Below are positions 2 through 8,431 of a stretch of 28,375 bases of DNA, one piece after another (position 1 is the stretch's first letter; every line of letters begins with the position of its first letter). The DNA is from a virus. Made by a program: the position numbers and the translations under genes. Under the pieces are notes generated by a model. The model saw only the letters and a list, made by a program, of their open reading frames with translations. It was not told where the DNA came from and made no database searches. The stretch covers positions 1 through 28,375 of the IMG/VR virus record IMGVR_UViG_3300046756_000156; one strand, 5' to 3'.

Positions 2-1432
2 ATACCTGCTAATTGGAACAATGGTGTAGAAAGTCTAAACTATCTTAATAAACAAGAAGGTGCGTTTACGTACAAGTGGACACTATATTCAGCAGGTCAT
101 GCTGACTTAGATACAAATAAGATCGTTCCAAAAGAAGATATGGTGCGTAATAGAGACAGAGCAAACACATGGATACTTGGTGACTCAGGTGGTTTCCAAA
201 TTGGTAAAGGTGTTTGGGAAGGAGACTGGAAAGATCCTAACTGTCCAAAGGCACAAAAGAAACGTGATGGCGTTTTACGTTGGATGGATGCATATATGGA
301 CTATGGTATGGTCCTTGATATTCCAGCCTGGGTAGCACGTTCACCTGAAGGTGCAAAAGCCACTGGCATTAGTACATATGATGAGGCTGTAAAAGCAACA
401 CGTATAAACAATGACTATTGGATGAAACACAGAACAGGTGCTTGTAAATTCTTAAATGTATTACAAGGCGAGAACCATGCTGATGCAGAAGATTGGTATC
501 AGCAAATGAAAGACTATTGTGATCCTAACATATATCCAGACAAGCATTTTAATGGCTGGGCAATGGGTGGTCAGAATATGTGTGATGTACATTTGGTTCT
601 TAAACGTCTAGTTGCATTGAAATTTGACGGACTACTGGAACAAGGAGTACATGATGTAATGCACTTCTTAGGTACAAGTAAACTAGAATGGGCTACATTA
701 CTAACAGACATACAAAGAGCTGTTCGTAAGTATCATAACCCAAACTTTATGGTTACATTTGATTGTGCTAGTCCTTTCCTTGCTACAGCAAATGGGCAAG
801 TATACATTCAAAACGAAACACCTGATAGAGGTAAGTGGACTTATCGAATGGTGCCTAGTATAGATGATAAAAAATATGCAACTGATACTAGAACATTCCG
901 CGATGCTGTATTACAAGATGGTATCTTTAAAAACTTTGAGGATAGTCCAGTAACTGACGGACTACTTGTAAATGATGTATGTTACTATAAGCCCGGCGAT
1001 CTAAACAAAATAGGTAAAGAAGGTAAAACATCTTGGGATTCATTTAGTTACGCAATACAAATGGGTCACAATGTATGGAGTCATATTAATGCTGTACAAG
1101 AAGCAAACAGACAGTATGATGCAGGTATAACTCCTAAGATGTTAGTAGACGAACGTTTTGATAGAGTCTACTTTAAAGACATAGTCGAAGCAATCTTTAT
1201 GACAGACAATAGAGATGAAGCAAATGCAATTATCGAAGAGTTTAGTAAATTCTGGATGAGCATACCTGGTACTAGGGGTGCTATTGGTAAAAAGACTGTA
1301 AATTCTAGTACATATTTTAACGCATTGTTTGATGTAGAAGAAACGCCACAACAAGAAGAATTAGAAGCAGGTGAATATACTGAAGAACAAGAAAGTAAGT
1401 TAGGGGAACTTGAGGATGAGCAATTACAGTGA
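2..1432 (+). CDS. dpdA: DpdA-like / tRNA-guanine transglycosylase family protein, 5' end outside window
   Basis: The frame is open from base 2, so the first ATG at 140 is internal and the gene begins before the window. The protein belongs to the TGT fold. GDSGGFQ (Asp codon at 182-184) matches the TGT general acid/base motif, FDCASPF (Asp codon at 761-763) matches the nucleophile motif, and GWAMGGQ and HFLGTSKLEW match the conserved loop motifs. Bacterial TGT exchanges guanine for preQ1 in tRNA; phage DpdA proteins are distant relatives that place 7-deazaguanines in DNA. The usual C-terminal CxCxxC zinc motif is not visible, and the C-terminus is instead a Glu-rich tail. A QueD-like protein, FolE and QueE downstream favour a DNA-modifying role, but a tRNA substrate cannot be excluded. 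The stop overlaps the next gene. Confidence 0.8.
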   Translation: MPANWNNGVESLNYLNKQEGAFTYKWTLYSAGHADLDTNKIVPKEDMVRNRDRANTWILGDSGGFQIGKGVWEGDWKDPNCPKAQKKRDGVLRWMDAYMDYGMVLDIPAWVARSPEGAKATGISTYDEAVKATRINNDYWMKHRTGACKFLNVLQGENHADAEDWYQQMKDYCDPNIYPDKHFNGWAMGGQNMCDVHLVLKRLVALKFDGLLEQGVHDVMHFLGTSKLEWATLLTDIQRAVRKYHNPNFMVTFDCASPFLATANGQVYIQNETPDRGKWTYRMVPSIDDKKYATDTRTFRDAVLQDGIFKNFEDSPVTDGLLVNDVCYYKPGDLNKIGKEGKTSWDSFSYAIQMGHNVWSHINAVQEANRQYDAGITPKMLVDERFDRVYFKDIVEAIFMTDNRDEANAIIEEFSKFWMSIPGTRGAIGKKTVNSSTYFNALFDVEETPQQEELEAGEYTEEQESKLGELEDEQLQ

Positions 1433-1616
1433 TGAACACGAAAAAATAGCGAATCAATTAGATATTTTATATAAACGTCATAGAGAACTTGACGATAGCA
1501 TAATTAATCGTTATAATAAGTTTGCAACTGACTCCGAAATTAACATGATGAAGACCAAAAAGTTATGGTTCAAAGACGAAATATATAGATTAGAGAAAAG
1601 GCTGAAAGAGATATGA
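1416..1616 (+). CDS. DUF465 (YdcH-like) small helical protein
   Basis: This is a protein of about 66 residues, predicted entirely helical and highly charged. The pattern HRELDDSI followed by a Lys-rich KLWFKDEIYRLEKRL helix matches DUF465 (YdcH/SlyX-like) hairpins, which are small coiled-coil proteins of unknown role. I chose ATG 1416 because AGGGGA at 1402-1407 sits 8 bases upstream; a TTG at 1410 is also in frame. The gene starts inside the end of the dpdA-like gene and overlaps the next start by four bases (ATGA), so translation is probably coupled. Family assignment is by pattern only and the function is unknown. Confidence 0.7.
   Translation: MSNYSDEHEKIANQLDILYKRHRELDDSIINRYNKFATDSEINMMKTKKLWFKDEIYRLEKRLKEI
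1489..1517 (+). promoter_or_regulatory. Possible intragenic sigma-70 promoter
   Basis: TTGACG (1489-1494), a 17-base spacer and a perfect TATAAT (1512-1517) lie inside the DUF465 gene, about 95 bases upstream of the next start at 1613. It could drive that gene. It is coding sequence in an AT-rich genome, so chance is a real alternative. Confidence 0.35.
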
Positions 1617-2146
1617 AAAGAGATTATGATGATGGCGTTTTAGAAACACCTGTTTTATTTGTAGGTGTAGAAGTCGAAAAAACTCCTGCTTACGGTTTAA
1701 AGACATTATTTGTAGATGGACTTCAAGATGTAGATACTATTTTGACATACTACAATAAATTGGATTGTAAGCATATCTTTTTTGGTGCTAACCATTCATT
1801 TAACCCTGGTACAGACTTTCCAGCAGATGCAGGTAACTGGGAGCGTTTTGAAAAAATGATAATGCCTTTCTTAGATGAAGGATATCTTTGTTCATTAGAT
1901 CTTCCAATTGATCATGCAGAAGGTATGTTAGAGTCTGCTATGGTAGAATACAATAACTTTATTCCACAACTACGCATTCCATTGCCTTATGTGAAACAGT
2001 GGAACTACAACACTATGTTGAAGATTGACGATAAAGATTTTAAGGCAACTAACCCAGGTGTTTGGTGCCATAGTTTGCATGACCTTTTGGATAGAGAAAA
2101 ATTTACCGATTGGAGCAAATATGGACTTGACAAAGTAATTAAATGA
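1613..2146 (+). CDS. Phage protein of unknown function
   Basis: I do not recognise a family with confidence in this 177-residue soluble protein. It has no signal peptide or membrane segment. The N-terminal third looks like an alpha/beta unit (VLFVGVEV, then KTLFVDGLQDVDTILTYYNK, then HIFFGANHSF). The C-terminal third has a dense conserved-looking segment with Trp, Asn and Cys-His (PLPYVKQWNYN, NPGVWCHSLHDLLD). It starts on an ATGA overlap with the DUF465 gene and ends just before the QueD-like gene, so it sits between two genes tied to 7-deazaguanine chemistry and may be an accessory factor there. That link is only positional. Confidence 0.75.
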   Translation: MKRDYDDGVLETPVLFVGVEVEKTPAYGLKTLFVDGLQDVDTILTYYNKLDCKHIFFGANHSFNPGTDFPADAGNWERFEKMIMPFLDEGYLCSLDLPIDHAEGMLESAMVEYNNFIPQLRIPLPYVKQWNYNTMLKIDDKDFKATNPGVWCHSLHDLLDREKFTDWSKYGLDKVIK

Positions 2147-2155: not shown

Positions 2156-2213
2156 ATAAACAATGCAAGAACGTTATTACGACTACATGCTTCGTAGAAT
2201 GAGAGAGGATAGA

Positions 2214-2618
2214 ATGGAAAATACAATAAATAACTCACAAAAGAGTATATGGGTAACCTTTAGAAAAGAAGGTATTCATAAATATCCGGCGGCACTAGAT
2301 GACCCAAAACTTGCAACAGGTGATGACATGGACGTTTCGTTCCTTGGTTATCCTCATCGTCATATTTTCCACTTCAGGGTGCGTATCGAAGTGTTCCATG
2401 ACGATAGAGACATCGAATTCATCCAGTTCAAAAGATGGCTCGAAAAGCTCTATAATGATTCCGACGGTGCGGTGCTCGTACTAGATTACAAATCGTGTGA
2501 AATGATCGCAGACGATCTATATTCACAAATTTCAGCAAAGTATCCCGGCCGCTTTGTTGAGATTGATGTCTCCGAAGATGGAGAGAATGGCTGTCAAATC
2601 TTTTACCCAAAACCCTAA
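2214..2618 (+). CDS. QueD/PTPS-like T-fold protein (divergent 6-carboxytetrahydropterin synthase-like)
   Basis: A protein of 134 residues, close to QueD size (about 120). QueD makes 6-carboxy-tetrahydropterin from dihydroneopterin triphosphate, the step between FolE and QueE. Visible T-fold landmarks are His22 in a short FRKEGIHKYP segment, the zinc-type pair in PHRHIFHF (His48, His50), DIEFIQFKRWL matching the QueD DFxxLK helix, SCEMIADDL matching PTxExLA, and a last strand IDVSEDGENGCQIFY that parallels the QueD V-E-GC-Y ending. The catalytic Cys between the zinc histidines is absent and the Asp-His pair reads Asp-Tyr, so activity is uncertain. I chose ATG 2214 because GAGAGG precedes it and the promoter implies an RNA start near 2162; ATG 2163 would add 17 residues. 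GC content is clearly above its neighbours (about 45-48% in lines I counted). Confidence 0.55.
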   Translation: MENTINNSQKSIWVTFRKEGIHKYPAALDDPKLATGDDMDVSFLGYPHRHIFHFRVRIEVFHDDRDIEFIQFKRWLEKLYNDSDGAVLVLDYKSCEMIADDLYSQISAKYPGRFVEIDVSEDGENGCQIFYPKP

Positions 2619-2644: not shown

Positions 2645-2854
2645 ATGGCAAAGAACTTTCCGAAAGTTATGGACATCTATGACGATCTTGACAAGTTTCG
2701 CGACTACTGTCGCTTTGAAGGTAAAGTCTTTAATGAAAAAGACTTATACAAAGAAGGTGCACCTGTATGGGAAGCATATAAAAAATACCAAGGCTGGCTT
2801 CGTGCAAAAGCTCGTAATGCAGGACGCAACAATATAAACAAACGGAGGAACTAA
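2645..2854 (+). CDS. Small basic phage protein, unknown function
   Basis: A 69-residue helical protein with an acidic-aromatic first half (PKVMDIYDDLDKFRDYCRF) and an Arg/Lys-rich tail ending KRRN. No known domain is recognised. AAAGGA lies about 9 bases before the ATG. Its TAA overlaps the ATG of the glycosyltransferase by one base, so the two are probably translationally coupled. A longer out-of-frame ORF over the same bases lacks these signals. Confidence 0.65.
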   Translation: MAKNFPKVMDIYDDLDKFRDYCRFEGKVFNEKDLYKEGAPVWEAYKKYQGWLRAKARNAGRNNINKRRN

Positions 2855-3918
2855 TGACTATCTATATCGTAGACATTGAAGCAGTTGATACACGCTATAC
2901 TAAACAATGGAAAGAACATCTTCCAAAGCAACTGCAACGAGCTACGAATGAAAAAGTAGAAGTTGTTAGTGGTGGAGATACTCCTCAGGCTACAACACCT
3001 GGGGCGTTTCTTAACTTCGGTGGTACAAATGTTTATAAAAGCAAACAGTTAGAAAAAATAGGAGAAATGTTCTGTAATGGAACCATTAATGATGATGACT
3101 ATTTCCTATACACGGATGCTTGGAATCCTACTGTTATACAACTTCGTTACATGGCCGAACTATTAGGCGTTGATATTTGTATTGGCGGACTTTGGCATGC
3201 AGGCAGTTATGATCCACAAGATTTCTTAGGTAGACTTATAGGAGATAAACCTTGGGTCAGACATGCAGAATATTCAATGTTTGAATGTTACGATGACAAT
3301 TTTTTTGCAAGTGAATTTCATTGGGATATGTTTGCAGAAACGTTTGCACTTGAAATGGGCGTAGTTGATCAAACTAAAATGAAACGTGTAGGATGGCCTA
3401 TGGAATATCTAAAGAACAGTTTAGATAGTTACAAAGGTATGGAAAAGCGAGACTTGATCTTGTTCCCACATCGTGTTGCTCCTGAGAAACAAGTTGATAT
3501 TTTTAGAGATTTAAAACAACGTTTACCTCAATATGAATTTGTAGTATGTCAAGAACAACAACTTACAAAAAATGAATATCATAATTTACTAGGCGAAGCT
3601 AAGATTGTGTTTAGTGCTAACCTACAAGAAACATTAGGTATTAGTTGGTATGAAGGAGCATTAGTTAATGCTATACCTATGGTGCCAGATAGACTAAGTT
3701 ACAGTGAAATGGCATTACCTGAATTTAAATATGACAGCAAATGGACTGAAGACTATGATGCATACTTACATCATAAAGATAAAGTTGTTGCTCAGATAGT
3801 TGAATACATGGAAAACTACGAGTCTTTCCTTCCAAGTATTGCAAAACAAGTATCTAAACTTAATAAAGACTTCTTCAGCGGCAAAGACTTGTATACGGTG
3901 ATTAGCGATGAACGATGA
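2854..3918 (+). CDS. GT-B fold glycosyltransferase-like protein
   Basis: A 354-residue protein. The C-terminal half carries the nucleotide-sugar-binding signature of GT1/GT4-type enzymes: FPHRVAPEKQ at 205-213, an alpha/beta unit with VVCQEQ near 230, and an E-T-L-G...YEGAL...IPMVP block at 259-278, equivalent to the E(x7)E region. The N-terminal half has GGxN-like and DDYFLYTDAW segments as expected for the acceptor domain. Such enzymes move a sugar from an activated donor to sugars, lipids, proteins or DNA bases. A strong GGAGG (2844-2848) precedes the ATG. The location in a base-modification cassette makes a DNA-linked acceptor tempting, but the sequence does not show the acceptor. Confidence 0.75.
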   Translation: MTIYIVDIEAVDTRYTKQWKEHLPKQLQRATNEKVEVVSGGDTPQATTPGAFLNFGGTNVYKSKQLEKIGEMFCNGTINDDDYFLYTDAWNPTVIQLRYMAELLGVDICIGGLWHAGSYDPQDFLGRLIGDKPWVRHAEYSMFECYDDNFFASEFHWDMFAETFALEMGVVDQTKMKRVGWPMEYLKNSLDSYKGMEKRDLILFPHRVAPEKQVDIFRDLKQRLPQYEFVVCQEQQLTKNEYHNLLGEAKIVFSANLQETLGISWYEGALVNAIPMVPDRLSYSEMALPEFKYDSKWTEDYDAYLHHKDKVVAQIVEYMENYESFLPSIAKQVSKLNKDFFSGKDLYTVISDER

Positions 3919-5026: not shown

Positions 5027-5610
5027 AACATACTAATTACTTTAATGGAGACATACAAACGTATGACGACATATTTACAGAACAGCAACTAAATGCAATC
5101 GCGGCTGAAGTTACAACACTGAACTATGGCTATGGAAGTATTGATCAAATGTCATTACAAAACTTTCAAGCACCTACTGGAATGGTTAACGTAGGTAAAG
5201 GTAACGACAATTGGTACAAAGTAGTTGAAGACTATTGCCGTAAAAATATTCCAGAACTAAAAGATATTCCGGAAGGTAGGCATCACGTTAATTTATTTGG
5301 ACCACGTGAAAATGCAATGTATCACGAAGATTCTGAAGATGGCTGGACCGCTATTTTTTATGCAAACCAGTATTGGGATATAAACGAAGGTGGCGAAACT
5401 AAATTTATAATGCCCGCTGATATGTTAGATGCTAGTAAAGAAATTAAAACGGACACATTAGATTATCCTGTTGTACTTTCAATAGCACCTATACCAGGAA
5501 GATTAGTAATATTTAAAGGTAACTTACTACATTCAGCAACTGGGTTTAGAAACACATGGCGTTTTACACCTACTATACAATTTTATAAGACCGGAGATAA
5601 AGAAGAATGA
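5023..5610 (+). CDS. 2OG-Fe(II) oxygenase (prolyl 4-hydroxylase-like)
   Basis: A 195-residue protein with the double-stranded beta-helix iron site of 2-oxoglutarate dioxygenases: H101-E-D103 in MYHEDSEDGW, distal H170 in GNLLHSATGF and a 2OG-binding Arg at about 180 in TWRFTPTIQF. The G-G-E-T-K-F strand and PIPGRLVIF before the distal His are typical of the P4H-like branch. Such enzymes hydroxylate proteins, small molecules or nucleic acid bases; the substrate here is unknown. The start is TTG at 5023, supported by AAGGA at 5011-5015 with a 7-base gap and by overlap with the previous stop; the next Met is about residue 43, too late to keep the fold. Confidence 0.8.
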   Translation: MKHTNYFNGDIQTYDDIFTEQQLNAIAAEVTTLNYGYGSIDQMSLQNFQAPTGMVNVGKGNDNWYKVVEDYCRKNIPELKDIPEGRHHVNLFGPRENAMYHEDSEDGWTAIFYANQYWDINEGGETKFIMPADMLDASKEIKTDTLDYPVVLSIAPIPGRLVIFKGNLLHSATGFRNTWRFTPTIQFYKTGDKEE

Positions 5611-6164
5611 AGAAACATTATTACACATGGGGACACGTTGAAAAAATGTGTATAGATATCGCAATGCAGATGCAGAAAGATAACTGGAAGCCAGACTACA
5701 TTGTAGGTATTACACGTGGTGGTAATGTACCTGCTACAATACTGTCGCATATGTTAGGCGTTCGCTGTGAAGCACTTAAAGTAGCATTACGTGACGGCGA
5801 TAGTTATCAGGAAAGCAACTGTTGGATGTCTAGTGATGCGTTTGGTTACATTGACGAAGAAGAACGTGCTGTAACTAAAAGCCGTTGGGACGTTAACAAA
5901 CGTAAAAACATTTTAATTGTAGATGATATTAACGATACAGGTGCAACACTTGAGTGGATCAAACAAGATTGGCAGGCAAGTTGTTTACCTAACGAAAGTA
6001 GTTGGGGTACTGTATGGAATAAAAATGTAAGATTTGCTACACTAACTGAGAACCTTGCAAGTAATTTTGATGGTGTTGATTATTCAGCACACGAAGTTAA
6101 CAAAGCAGATGAAGATATTTGGTTAGTTTATCCTTGGGAAATAGTAGGCACATATGATGCATGA
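5607..6164 (+). CDS. Type I phosphoribosyltransferase-like protein
   Basis: A 185-residue protein. ILIVDDINDTGAT at 102-114 is the PRPP-binding signature of type I phosphoribosyltransferases, and YIVGITRGGNVPA at 31-43 is the pyrophosphate-binding loop region. The closest general match is the xanthine/hypoxanthine-guanine type, which joins a purine base to PRPP. Insertion of 20-30 residues between these motifs (the YQESNCWMSSDAFGYIDEEE region) is unusual for the small bacterial enzymes. A purine salvage enzyme beside folE and dpdA-like genes could handle guanine released by base exchange, but that is inference. It overlaps the oxygenase stop (ATGA) and the next start. Confidence 0.8.
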   Translation: MKKHYYTWGHVEKMCIDIAMQMQKDNWKPDYIVGITRGGNVPATILSHMLGVRCEALKVALRDGDSYQESNCWMSSDAFGYIDEEERAVTKSRWDVNKRKNILIVDDINDTGATLEWIKQDWQASCLPNESSWGTVWNKNVRFATLTENLASNFDGVDYSAHEVNKADEDIWLVYPWEIVGTYDA

Positions 6165-6847: not shown

Positions 6848-7537
6848 ATGGATAAATCCAAAGAGATAAAGGCCCGTTTGCAACAAGCAAACAAACGCTT
6901 CTGGGCAGGCGACAATATTTCAGACTATATTAAAGACGGCGAAAAGCAAATACTAATTGATGAGCTTGCTGTTAAGTTTGAAGACGTATTACAAGGTCTT
7001 GTAATAGATACAGAAAACGATCCTAATAGTAACGGCACAGGTAAACGTCTTGCAAAGATGTATATCAACGAGCTAATGGCAGGACGTTATGAAGCAATGC
7101 CTGCGGCAACAGCATTTCCAAATGACAGCGATGATCGTTATGAAGGTATGTTAGTTGTGCGTAGTGAACTTACAAGTATGTGTTCACATCATCATCAGAT
7201 TGTTAGAGGTGTAGCATACATTGGTATTATTGCATCAGACAAACTGATTGGTTTAAGTAAGTATACACGTATTGCACAATGGTGTGCTATGCGAGGTACA
7301 CTCCAAGAAGAACTTGCAAATGACATTGTACGTGAAATACAGAAGGCAACAGGTGCAGAACACTTAGGTGTGTATGTACAAGCAACACACGGTTGTGTTG
7401 AAAACAGAGGTGTTAAGGCACATAGTAGTCTTACACAAACAACTGTATTGAAAGGCGCATTTAAAGATGACGCAGGAACAAAGAAAGAGTTTATGGATAA
7501 TATTAAACTACAACAATCATATGCTTGTGATAGATAG
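6848..7537 (+). CDS. folE: GTP cyclohydrolase I
   Basis: A 229-residue cytoplasmic enzyme that converts GTP to 7,8-dihydroneopterin triphosphate, the entry to both folate and 7-deazaguanine synthesis. The zinc ligands are in place: C112 and H115 in SMCSHHHQ, and C183 in THGCVENRGV. GLSKYTRIAQWCAMR and LQEELANDI match the conserved core helix region, and NGTGKRLAKMYINEL matches the N-terminal pair of helices. Length is near the family norm of about 200-220. GGAGA precedes the ATG. It is followed after 9 bases by queE under one promoter, which supports use in preQ0 synthesis rather than folate. Confidence 0.95.
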   Translation: MDKSKEIKARLQQANKRFWAGDNISDYIKDGEKQILIDELAVKFEDVLQGLVIDTENDPNSNGTGKRLAKMYINELMAGRYEAMPAATAFPNDSDDRYEGMLVVRSELTSMCSHHHQIVRGVAYIGIIASDKLIGLSKYTRIAQWCAMRGTLQEELANDIVREIQKATGAEHLGVYVQATHGCVENRGVKAHSSLTQTTVLKGAFKDDAGTKKEFMDNIKLQQSYACDR

Positions 7538-7546
7538 GAATAGATT

Positions 7547-8431
7547 ATGAAACTTAGATATTCAGAAGCATTTTATAGTGTGCAAGGCGAAGGCAAGTTT
7601 GTAGGAGTACCTAGTGTATTCTTACGTACCTTCGGTTGTAACTTTCGTTGTATGAACTTTGGACTAGAACGTGGAACACCTGCTAGAGCAGACGGTGTAA
7701 AACATAATCCTGAAGTAAAAGAATTACTTGACAGCAATATAATTAACACTGTTGAAAAGTTTACAGACTTACCTGTAATACATACAGGCTGTGATACATA
7801 TGCAAGTATCTATCCAGAATTTAAAAAGTTTATGATGGATAGAACTGTAGATGAAGTAGTTGAACACTTATTGAGTTTGACTCCTAACGGACAGTGGACA
7901 TTAGATAATGGACAAGATATTCATTTAATATTCACAGGCGGAGAACCTTTGTTAGGGTGGCAGAGATTCTATGCAGAGCTATTAGAACACCCGCAGATGA
8001 GAGACTTAAAAAATGTTACATTTGAAACAAATACTTCGCAGAAGTTACGACCTGATTTCAGAGACTATCTTAACAATCAAGACAGATTTGAAGTCACTTG
8101 GAGTTGTTCCCCAAAACTTAGTGTCAGCGGAGAACGCTGGGAGGATGCTATTAACCCTGATATTGCTAGTGAGTATTTCAGTGTTCTTAATAGTAAACTT
8201 TATCTTAAGTTTGTTGTGGCTGACAGCATTGACGTTGAAGAAGTTAAAAGAGCTGTTACTGAGTATAGGAGCGCCGGGGTCGACTGTCCGGTATATCTTA
8301 TGCCGCTCGGAGGACGCTCTGAAGAATATAAACTTAACGTTAAGGAAGTGGCTGAATTATGCATGGCGCAAGGATGGAGGTTTACACCAAGACTCCATAT
8401 CGACCTTTTCGGCAATGCATGGGGGACTTAG
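7547..8431 (+). CDS. queE: QueE-like radical SAM 7-carboxy-7-deazaguanine synthase
   Basis: A 294-residue enzyme expected to turn 6-carboxytetrahydropterin into 7-carboxy-7-deazaguanine. FYSVQGEG (9-16) and the G-V-P-S-V-F-L-R strand are QueE hallmarks, FTGGEPLLGW near residue 130 is the SAM-binding GGE motif, and SPKLS near 198 is the QueE substrate-loop motif. The iron-sulphur motif is odd: Cys31 and Cys35 are normal (GCNFRC), but the third position is Phe. A GCDTYAS segment with Cys82 occurs after about 46 inserted residues, and probably supplies the third ligand. GC content rises to about 45-47% from about 8230 to the end. The end overlaps a small ORF. Confidence 0.9.
   Translation: MKLRYSEAFYSVQGEGKFVGVPSVFLRTFGCNFRCMNFGLERGTPARADGVKHNPEVKELLDSNIINTVEKFTDLPVIHTGCDTYASIYPEFKKFMMDRTVDEVVEHLLSLTPNGQWTLDNGQDIHLIFTGGEPLLGWQRFYAELLEHPQMRDLKNVTFETNTSQKLRPDFRDYLNNQDRFEVTWSCSPKLSVSGERWEDAINPDIASEYFSVLNSKLYLKFVVADSIDVEEVKRAVTEYRSAGVDCPVYLMPLGGRSEEYKLNVKEVAELCMAQGWRFTPRLHIDLFGNAWGT

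Follow-up and report, generated by a model that had tools for sequence, protein, structure and literature searches.

The window, by which we mean the whole viral contig of 28,375 bases analysed here, encodes a small protein that resembles QueD and yet lacks the cysteine and the Asp-His pair of the QueD active site, and the question raised by the locus is what such a protein does in a phage. A preliminary description had suggested that it may be inactive, may use other residues or may catalyse a related pterin reaction.

Gene, family and predicted fold

2163..2618, + strand: gene for the QueD-like protein (predicted T-fold) of the PHROG 17812 family, 151 aa, the object of the finding
2163..2213, + strand: N-terminal helical extension, common to marine relatives and absent from the reading frame that starts at 2214

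The reading frame had been placed at 2214-2618. The gene itself is real, as its conservation goes far beyond chance: relatives are found in at least 598 IMG/VR stretches, and the protein matches PHROG 17812, whose function is unassigned, with E = 1.6e-36. The start must probably be moved. The 17 residues of the extension are found in dozens of marine relatives, belong to a helix (residues 2-23) in the AlphaFold2 model, and vary most at third codon positions (0.43, against 0.31 at first and 0.20 at second positions, in 60 loci). Because the extension is conserved in the marine relatives and its variation is biased towards third positions, the gene most likely starts at 2163, with the 17 extra residues translated, rather than at the internal start at 2214.

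Relatives are also encoded in 26 phage records and in a few bacterial genome contigs, and a search of plasmids returned none; identity to the window protein drops to about 35% within the family. Even with the threshold relaxed to E 10, Pfam returned nothing for the protein, and PF01242 (PTPS) was not matched over the cut-off; NCBIfam gave no match either, and a PDB search with the single sequence gave only noise. PHROG 17812 is a real and widespread QueD paralogue with no annotated function in the libraries searched. Some members carry additional parts, namely a C-terminal P-loop kinase-like domain in locus L160 (7186-8154), a C-terminal domain without assignment in L118, and N-terminal extensions without assignment in L087 and L091.

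The AlphaFold2 model obtained with a 70-sequence alignment has a pLDDT of 94 and the T-fold order beta-beta-alpha-alpha-beta-beta. When it was compared with the PDB by Foldseek, the top 29 matches were all QueD/PTPS-family entries, with E. coli QueD (4ntk) as the best (E = 1.8e-5, TM 0.61/0.74, query TM 0.61). We therefore have high confidence in the predicted T-fold, and the kinship to QueD proposed earlier is borne out. E. coli QueD also ranked first in a profile search of the PDB, weakly (E 0.0095) and with a full-length alignment. Profile-profile comparison with phage QueD aligned the C-terminal part alone (45 columns, probability 80%), so that homology is argued from the fold and from the PDB profile search. 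QueF and QueF-like enzymes, which act on preQ0 as nitrile reductase or amidinotransferase, are likewise T-fold proteins acting on a 7-deazaguanine and do appear in the fold search, but far more weakly than QueD (QueF at rank 30, E 0.016, TM 0.36); QueF moreover works downstream of QueC, which is absent from these phages, and this identity was rejected. FolB (dihydroneopterin aldolase) was likewise rejected, its best match (8evk, E 0.026) being outranked by the QueD/PTPS entries. Among viral proteins the best fold match, 459 aa long and named 'Alcohol dehydrogenase, N-terminal', contains the domain of the family.

Residues conserved in the family

Residue conservation was scored over 70 diverse family members, and the following elements of the window protein stand out.

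2277..2279, + strand: H39, first predicted metal-ligand His, invariant (70/70), aligned with the first zinc His of QueD
2355..2363, + strand: H65-R66-H67, with the second and third predicted metal-ligand His, invariant (70/70), corresponding to the HGH of QueD
2397..2420, + strand: H79-x2-R82-x2-E85-F86 motif, of which the E85-F86 end aligns with D-F of QueD
2484..2489, + strand: D108-Y109 ('Asp-Tyr'), variable, not homologous to Asp70-His71 of QueD
2493..2501, + strand: S111-C112-E113, invariant (70/70), at the position of T-S/A-E in QueD, with the sole invariant Cys
2574..2591, + strand: E138-D-x-E-N-G strand-turn, in which E138 corresponds to the Glu that anchors the base in QueD

The three zinc-type histidines described previously as H22, H48 and H50 are H39, H65 and H67 of the full reading frame, and from their invariance we infer that they bind a metal. 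The full invariant set comprises H39, L61, H65, R66, H67, V77, R82, E85, S111, C112, E113, E138, E141 and G143; within the second-helix motif H79 is kept in 69/70, R82 and E85 in 70/70 and F86 in 67/70 members. The Glu that closes the QueD-type strand is present, as had been noted, in the form of E138, and in the alignment to E. coli QueD E113 faces the Glu of Pro-Thr-Ser-Glu.

The loss of the QueD catalytic residues was also recognised correctly. No column between H39 and H65 holds more than 20% Cys across the 70 members, and when the family is aligned with E. coli QueD, no Cys faces the catalytic Cys and the segment of the Asp-His loop has no counterpart. The proposal that the Asp-His pair had been mutated to Asp-Tyr does not hold, since D108 (D/N/G) and Y109 (Y/H/N/F) are variable and adjoin the S-C-E motif. 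It had also been asked whether other Cys or His residues are invariant among homologues, and this check brought out an invariant Cys that had been missed, C112. Compared with QueD (E. coli 4ntk/4ntm, PF01242 superfamily), the protein thus shares the predicted strand and helix order, the size, the three zinc-type His, the Glu in the second-helix motif, the C-terminal anchoring Glu and an operon with FolE and QueE. It differs by having no equivalent of Cys27, no Asp70-His71 loop and no Pfam match, by invariants of its own (R66, H79, R82, E85, S111 and C112), and by coexisting with a true QueD.

Such an invariant pattern at about 35% identity speaks for a working enzyme with a chemistry of its own rather than a dead QueD. 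The many invariant polar residues disfavour inactivity, and the suggestion that other residues are used fits the new set (C112, R66, R82, E85 and others). T-fold proteins typically oligomerise, and this, together with the lost canonical residues, would suit a catalytically dead scaffold, one that either binds QueD, FolE or DpdA or hands the base over to DpdA. We regard such a scaffold as unlikely, as the roughly 14 invariant positions, among them three His, a Cys, Arg and several Glu, resemble an active site.

Relation to QueD and QueC

QueD and QueC were searched for across the complete sequences of 11 annotated phage records that contain the family. A separate PTPS/QueD above the Pfam cut-off is encoded elsewhere in the genome in ten of them, and the eleventh, Vibrio phage D479, has a weak PTPS/QueD match only (1.3e-3). 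The same coexistence is seen in bacteria. Directly after the family gene of Streptomyces sp. NEAU-Y11 (L198, 5977-6348) comes a gene for a QueD that has both Cys and Asp-His, and after this FolE and a deaminase of guanine/cytidine type; in Magnetospirillum the order is glycosyltransferase, family gene, DpdA, a small ORF and canonical QueD. The PHROG 17812 protein does not stand in for QueD. In many or most marine contigs from the lineage of the window no QueD was found, so that a QueD-like role is conceivable there; these contigs may be incomplete or rely on a host QueD. Such a role would be that of a QueD isoenzyme making CPH4 where the phage has no QueD, with C112 as the relocated Cys acting alongside other acids, and it would account for the retained zinc His triad, the terminal Glu and the invariant Cys. 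It is quite improbable, however, since the same invariant residues occur beside a separate QueD in 10 or 11 of the 11 phages, in Streptomyces and in Magnetospirillum. In addition, phage QueDs with the canonical Cys also carry a Cys at the C112 position, the Asp-His loop is missing, and the relation to QueC described below would be left unexplained.

In most phage QueDs examined only one of the three zinc His remains, AHR and HGH being replaced by AFR and HGY, whereas Cys and Asp-His are retained; such proteins occur in L097, L099, L102, L104, L106, L089, L090 and the control phages L200-L213. The complementary deficits of the two proteins in ACP17, X1, Phosso, phiST and BUCT-ZZ01 could be taken to mean that they form a composite enzyme. 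The idea was dropped as highly improbable, because HGY-type QueD is common in family-negative phages and because the QueD found with the family in PA5oct, Streptomyces and Magnetospirillum is a canonical one. The Streptomyces cluster (L198, 5977-9623; also L199) contains an FAD oxidoreductase besides the genes named above, resembles a 7-deazapurine biosynthetic cluster and is present in two copies in the assembly.

In the pathway described by Hutinet et al. 2019 (PMC6884629), FolE, QueD and QueE lead to 7-carboxy-7-deazaguanine (CDG), QueC converts it to preQ0, and DpdA follows; the same paper notes a phage without QueC that possibly carries the QueC substrate. A convincing QueC was found in 0/11 of the family-positive annotated phages, as against 14/14 QueD-bearing phages without the family (13 strong matches and a weak one in Mendera). 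Fisher's exact test gives 2e-7 for the strict table, and 3.5e-5 when D479 is conservatively counted as QueC-positive and Mendera as negative. Two weak QueC matches were excluded from the strict table, an NAD-synthetase-like protein in X1 and a divergent PP-loop protein in D479. The 11 family proteins are at most 64% mutually identical and the 14 control QueDs at most 78%, so the table is not one clone counted repeatedly; it is strong but not final, as the 14 controls were picked by QueD similarity and are mainly of one QueD subtype. A possible exception is the marine family-positive contig G005 (L094), with a QueC-like PP-loop protein carrying a CGKCFNCQQR motif.

It is therefore quite likely that the PHROG 17812 protein provides a step after QueE that replaces QueC. 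The two would hold an equivalent position in the pathway and are mutually exclusive in the phages tested, although QueC (PF06508) has an unrelated PP-loop fold. Because the family excludes QueC and accompanies a separate QueD, action on a deazaguanine after QueE is likelier than the related pterin reaction suggested at first.

Gene neighbourhood and proposed action on CDG

Neighbours were counted as same-strand homologues of the window proteins at 183 family-bearing loci.

140..1432, + strand: DpdA/TGT-like DNA transglycosylase, its start probably upstream of the listed ATG; 135/183 loci
1613..2146, + strand: conserved protein of 177 aa; 108/183 loci, on the same strand and always upstream of the family gene
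2854..3918, + strand: GT-B glycosyltransferase-like protein, the commonest neighbour; 145/183 loci
5607..6164, + strand: purine-type phosphoribosyltransferase (PF00156, 4e-13); 85 loci
6848..7537, + strand: FolE, GTP cyclohydrolase I (PF01227, 4e-37); 116/183 loci
7547..8431, + strand: QueE-like radical SAM 7-carboxy-7-deazaguanine synthase (PHROG 2076, 1e-48); 95/183 loci

The role beside FolE and QueE that had been predicted is supported by a conserved block containing DpdA, FolE and QueE, and the order of DpdA, the 1613-2146 gene, the GT-B gene, FolE and QueE is mostly steady across loci. The DpdA-like proteins have the TGT motif DSGG(F/L)Q, which reads DSGGFQ in the window. In most marine loci the gene at 1613-2146 separates DpdA from the QueD-like gene; its protein gave a confident alpha/beta model (pLDDT 90), for which a comparison with PDB folds returned nothing below E 0.001. 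The phosphoribosyltransferase may serve to salvage the guanine that DpdA sets free on exchange. The Magnetospirillum operon holds the family gene, DpdA, the glycosyltransferase and QueD, and FolE and QueE are absent from the region examined; the family therefore travels with the modification genes.

Our preferred reading, to which we give a probability of about 0.5, is that the PHROG 17812 protein is a neofunctionalised QueD paralogue in the phage 7-deazaguanine DNA-modification pathway that acts on CDG as a decarboxylase. That it finishes a 7-deazaguanine base destined for phage DNA is probable, and we infer CDG as the substrate; decarboxylation is the least certain part, with even odds. CDG would be made by FolE, QueE and a QueD of either phage or host origin, and the T-fold protein would convert it where other phages use QueC. 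E138 would hold the guanine-like face, as the terminal Glu does in QueD, and the three His would bind a metal beside the C7 carboxylate. C112, H79, R82 and E85 would supply acid/base groups, with C112 or H79 protonating C7; loss of CO2 from C7 would give 7-deazaguanine, which DpdA would exchange into DNA. The neighbours in Streptomyces (QueD, FolE and the guanine-type deaminase) are those expected if a 7-deazaguanine base is made.

Phage DNA containing 2'-deoxy-7-deazaguanine was reportedly described in 2023 by Cui et al., who are also reported to have predicted DpdL, a decarboxylase of CDG. The family resembles DpdL in its proposed place in the pathway, upstream of DpdA and acting on CDG in phages without QueC, and the occurrence in FolE/QueD/QueE phages that lack QueC agrees with the counts above; the PHROG 17812 family may be DpdL. 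Removal of a C7 carboxyl from a CDG-derived compound has also been proposed for TubF of the tubercidin pathway (PMC6112128), which differs in belonging to the unrelated UbiD family, in its proposed use of prenylated FMN and in acting after attachment of ribose phosphate. If decarboxylation by the QueD paralogue is true, an unannotated and widespread phage family gains a place at the CDG branch point, where it stands in for QueC. Its presence would then mark phages with 7-deazaguanine-type DNA not derived from preQ0. The QueD scaffold would have been rebuilt for new chemistry without the QueD catalytic residues, and this chemistry would be linked to the bacterial operon of Magnetospirillum and the gene cluster of Streptomyces.

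A loose end counts against decarboxylation, as the commonest neighbour is a glycosyltransferase and yet a decarboxylated C7 has no obvious handle for glycosylation. The exclusion of QueC would also be explained if the protein acted on CDG in a non-decarboxylating manner, leaving a handle at C7, for example an activated, reduced or esterified carboxyl, for glycosylation by the GT-B protein before or after insertion by DpdA. This remains a tentative alternative. It is favoured by the frequency of the glycosyltransferase and its compact operon with the family gene and DpdA in Magnetospirillum, by zinc alcohol dehydrogenase genes nearby in four loci, and by the name of the best viral fold match. 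The glycosyltransferase is absent, however, from 6 of the 11 annotated family-positive phages, phiST being one, and is therefore not required for the function of the family protein; it is present in 5/11, among them ACP17 and PA5oct, against 1/14 controls, where the match is weak. That the partner glycosyltransferase decorates the T-fold product of CDG, giving glycosylated 7-deazaguanine in phage (and Magnetospirillum) DNA, appears doubtful; its rank among neighbours and the alcohol dehydrogenase links nevertheless make a sugar-bearing deazaguanine possible and worth testing. If true, it would be a hypermodified guanine, and to our knowledge glycosylated 7-deazaguanine in DNA has not been reported.

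Some further observations concern the neighbouring genes. The GT-B gene is labelled 'glycosyltransferase' in phage Phosso, and a homologue weakly matches Glycos_transf_1; the protein at 2854-3918 is a candidate for DNA glycosylation. The alcohol dehydrogenase-like genes lie in L194 (4563-5459), L075 (5821-6738), L079 and L155. The radical-SAM Cys motif of QueE (7547-8431) is split, several dozen residues being inserted between CxxxC and the third Cys (CNFRCMNF...HTGCDTY), as in 70/98 QueE-like sequences of family loci. The chromosomal operon of Magnetospirillum (glycosyltransferase, family gene, DpdA) was located at 4816-8755 of L187, a locus that was followed on to the canonical QueD, with equivalents in L188, L191 and L193. 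Strain 64-120 has two copies of this operon, a candidate bacterial DNA-modification cluster.
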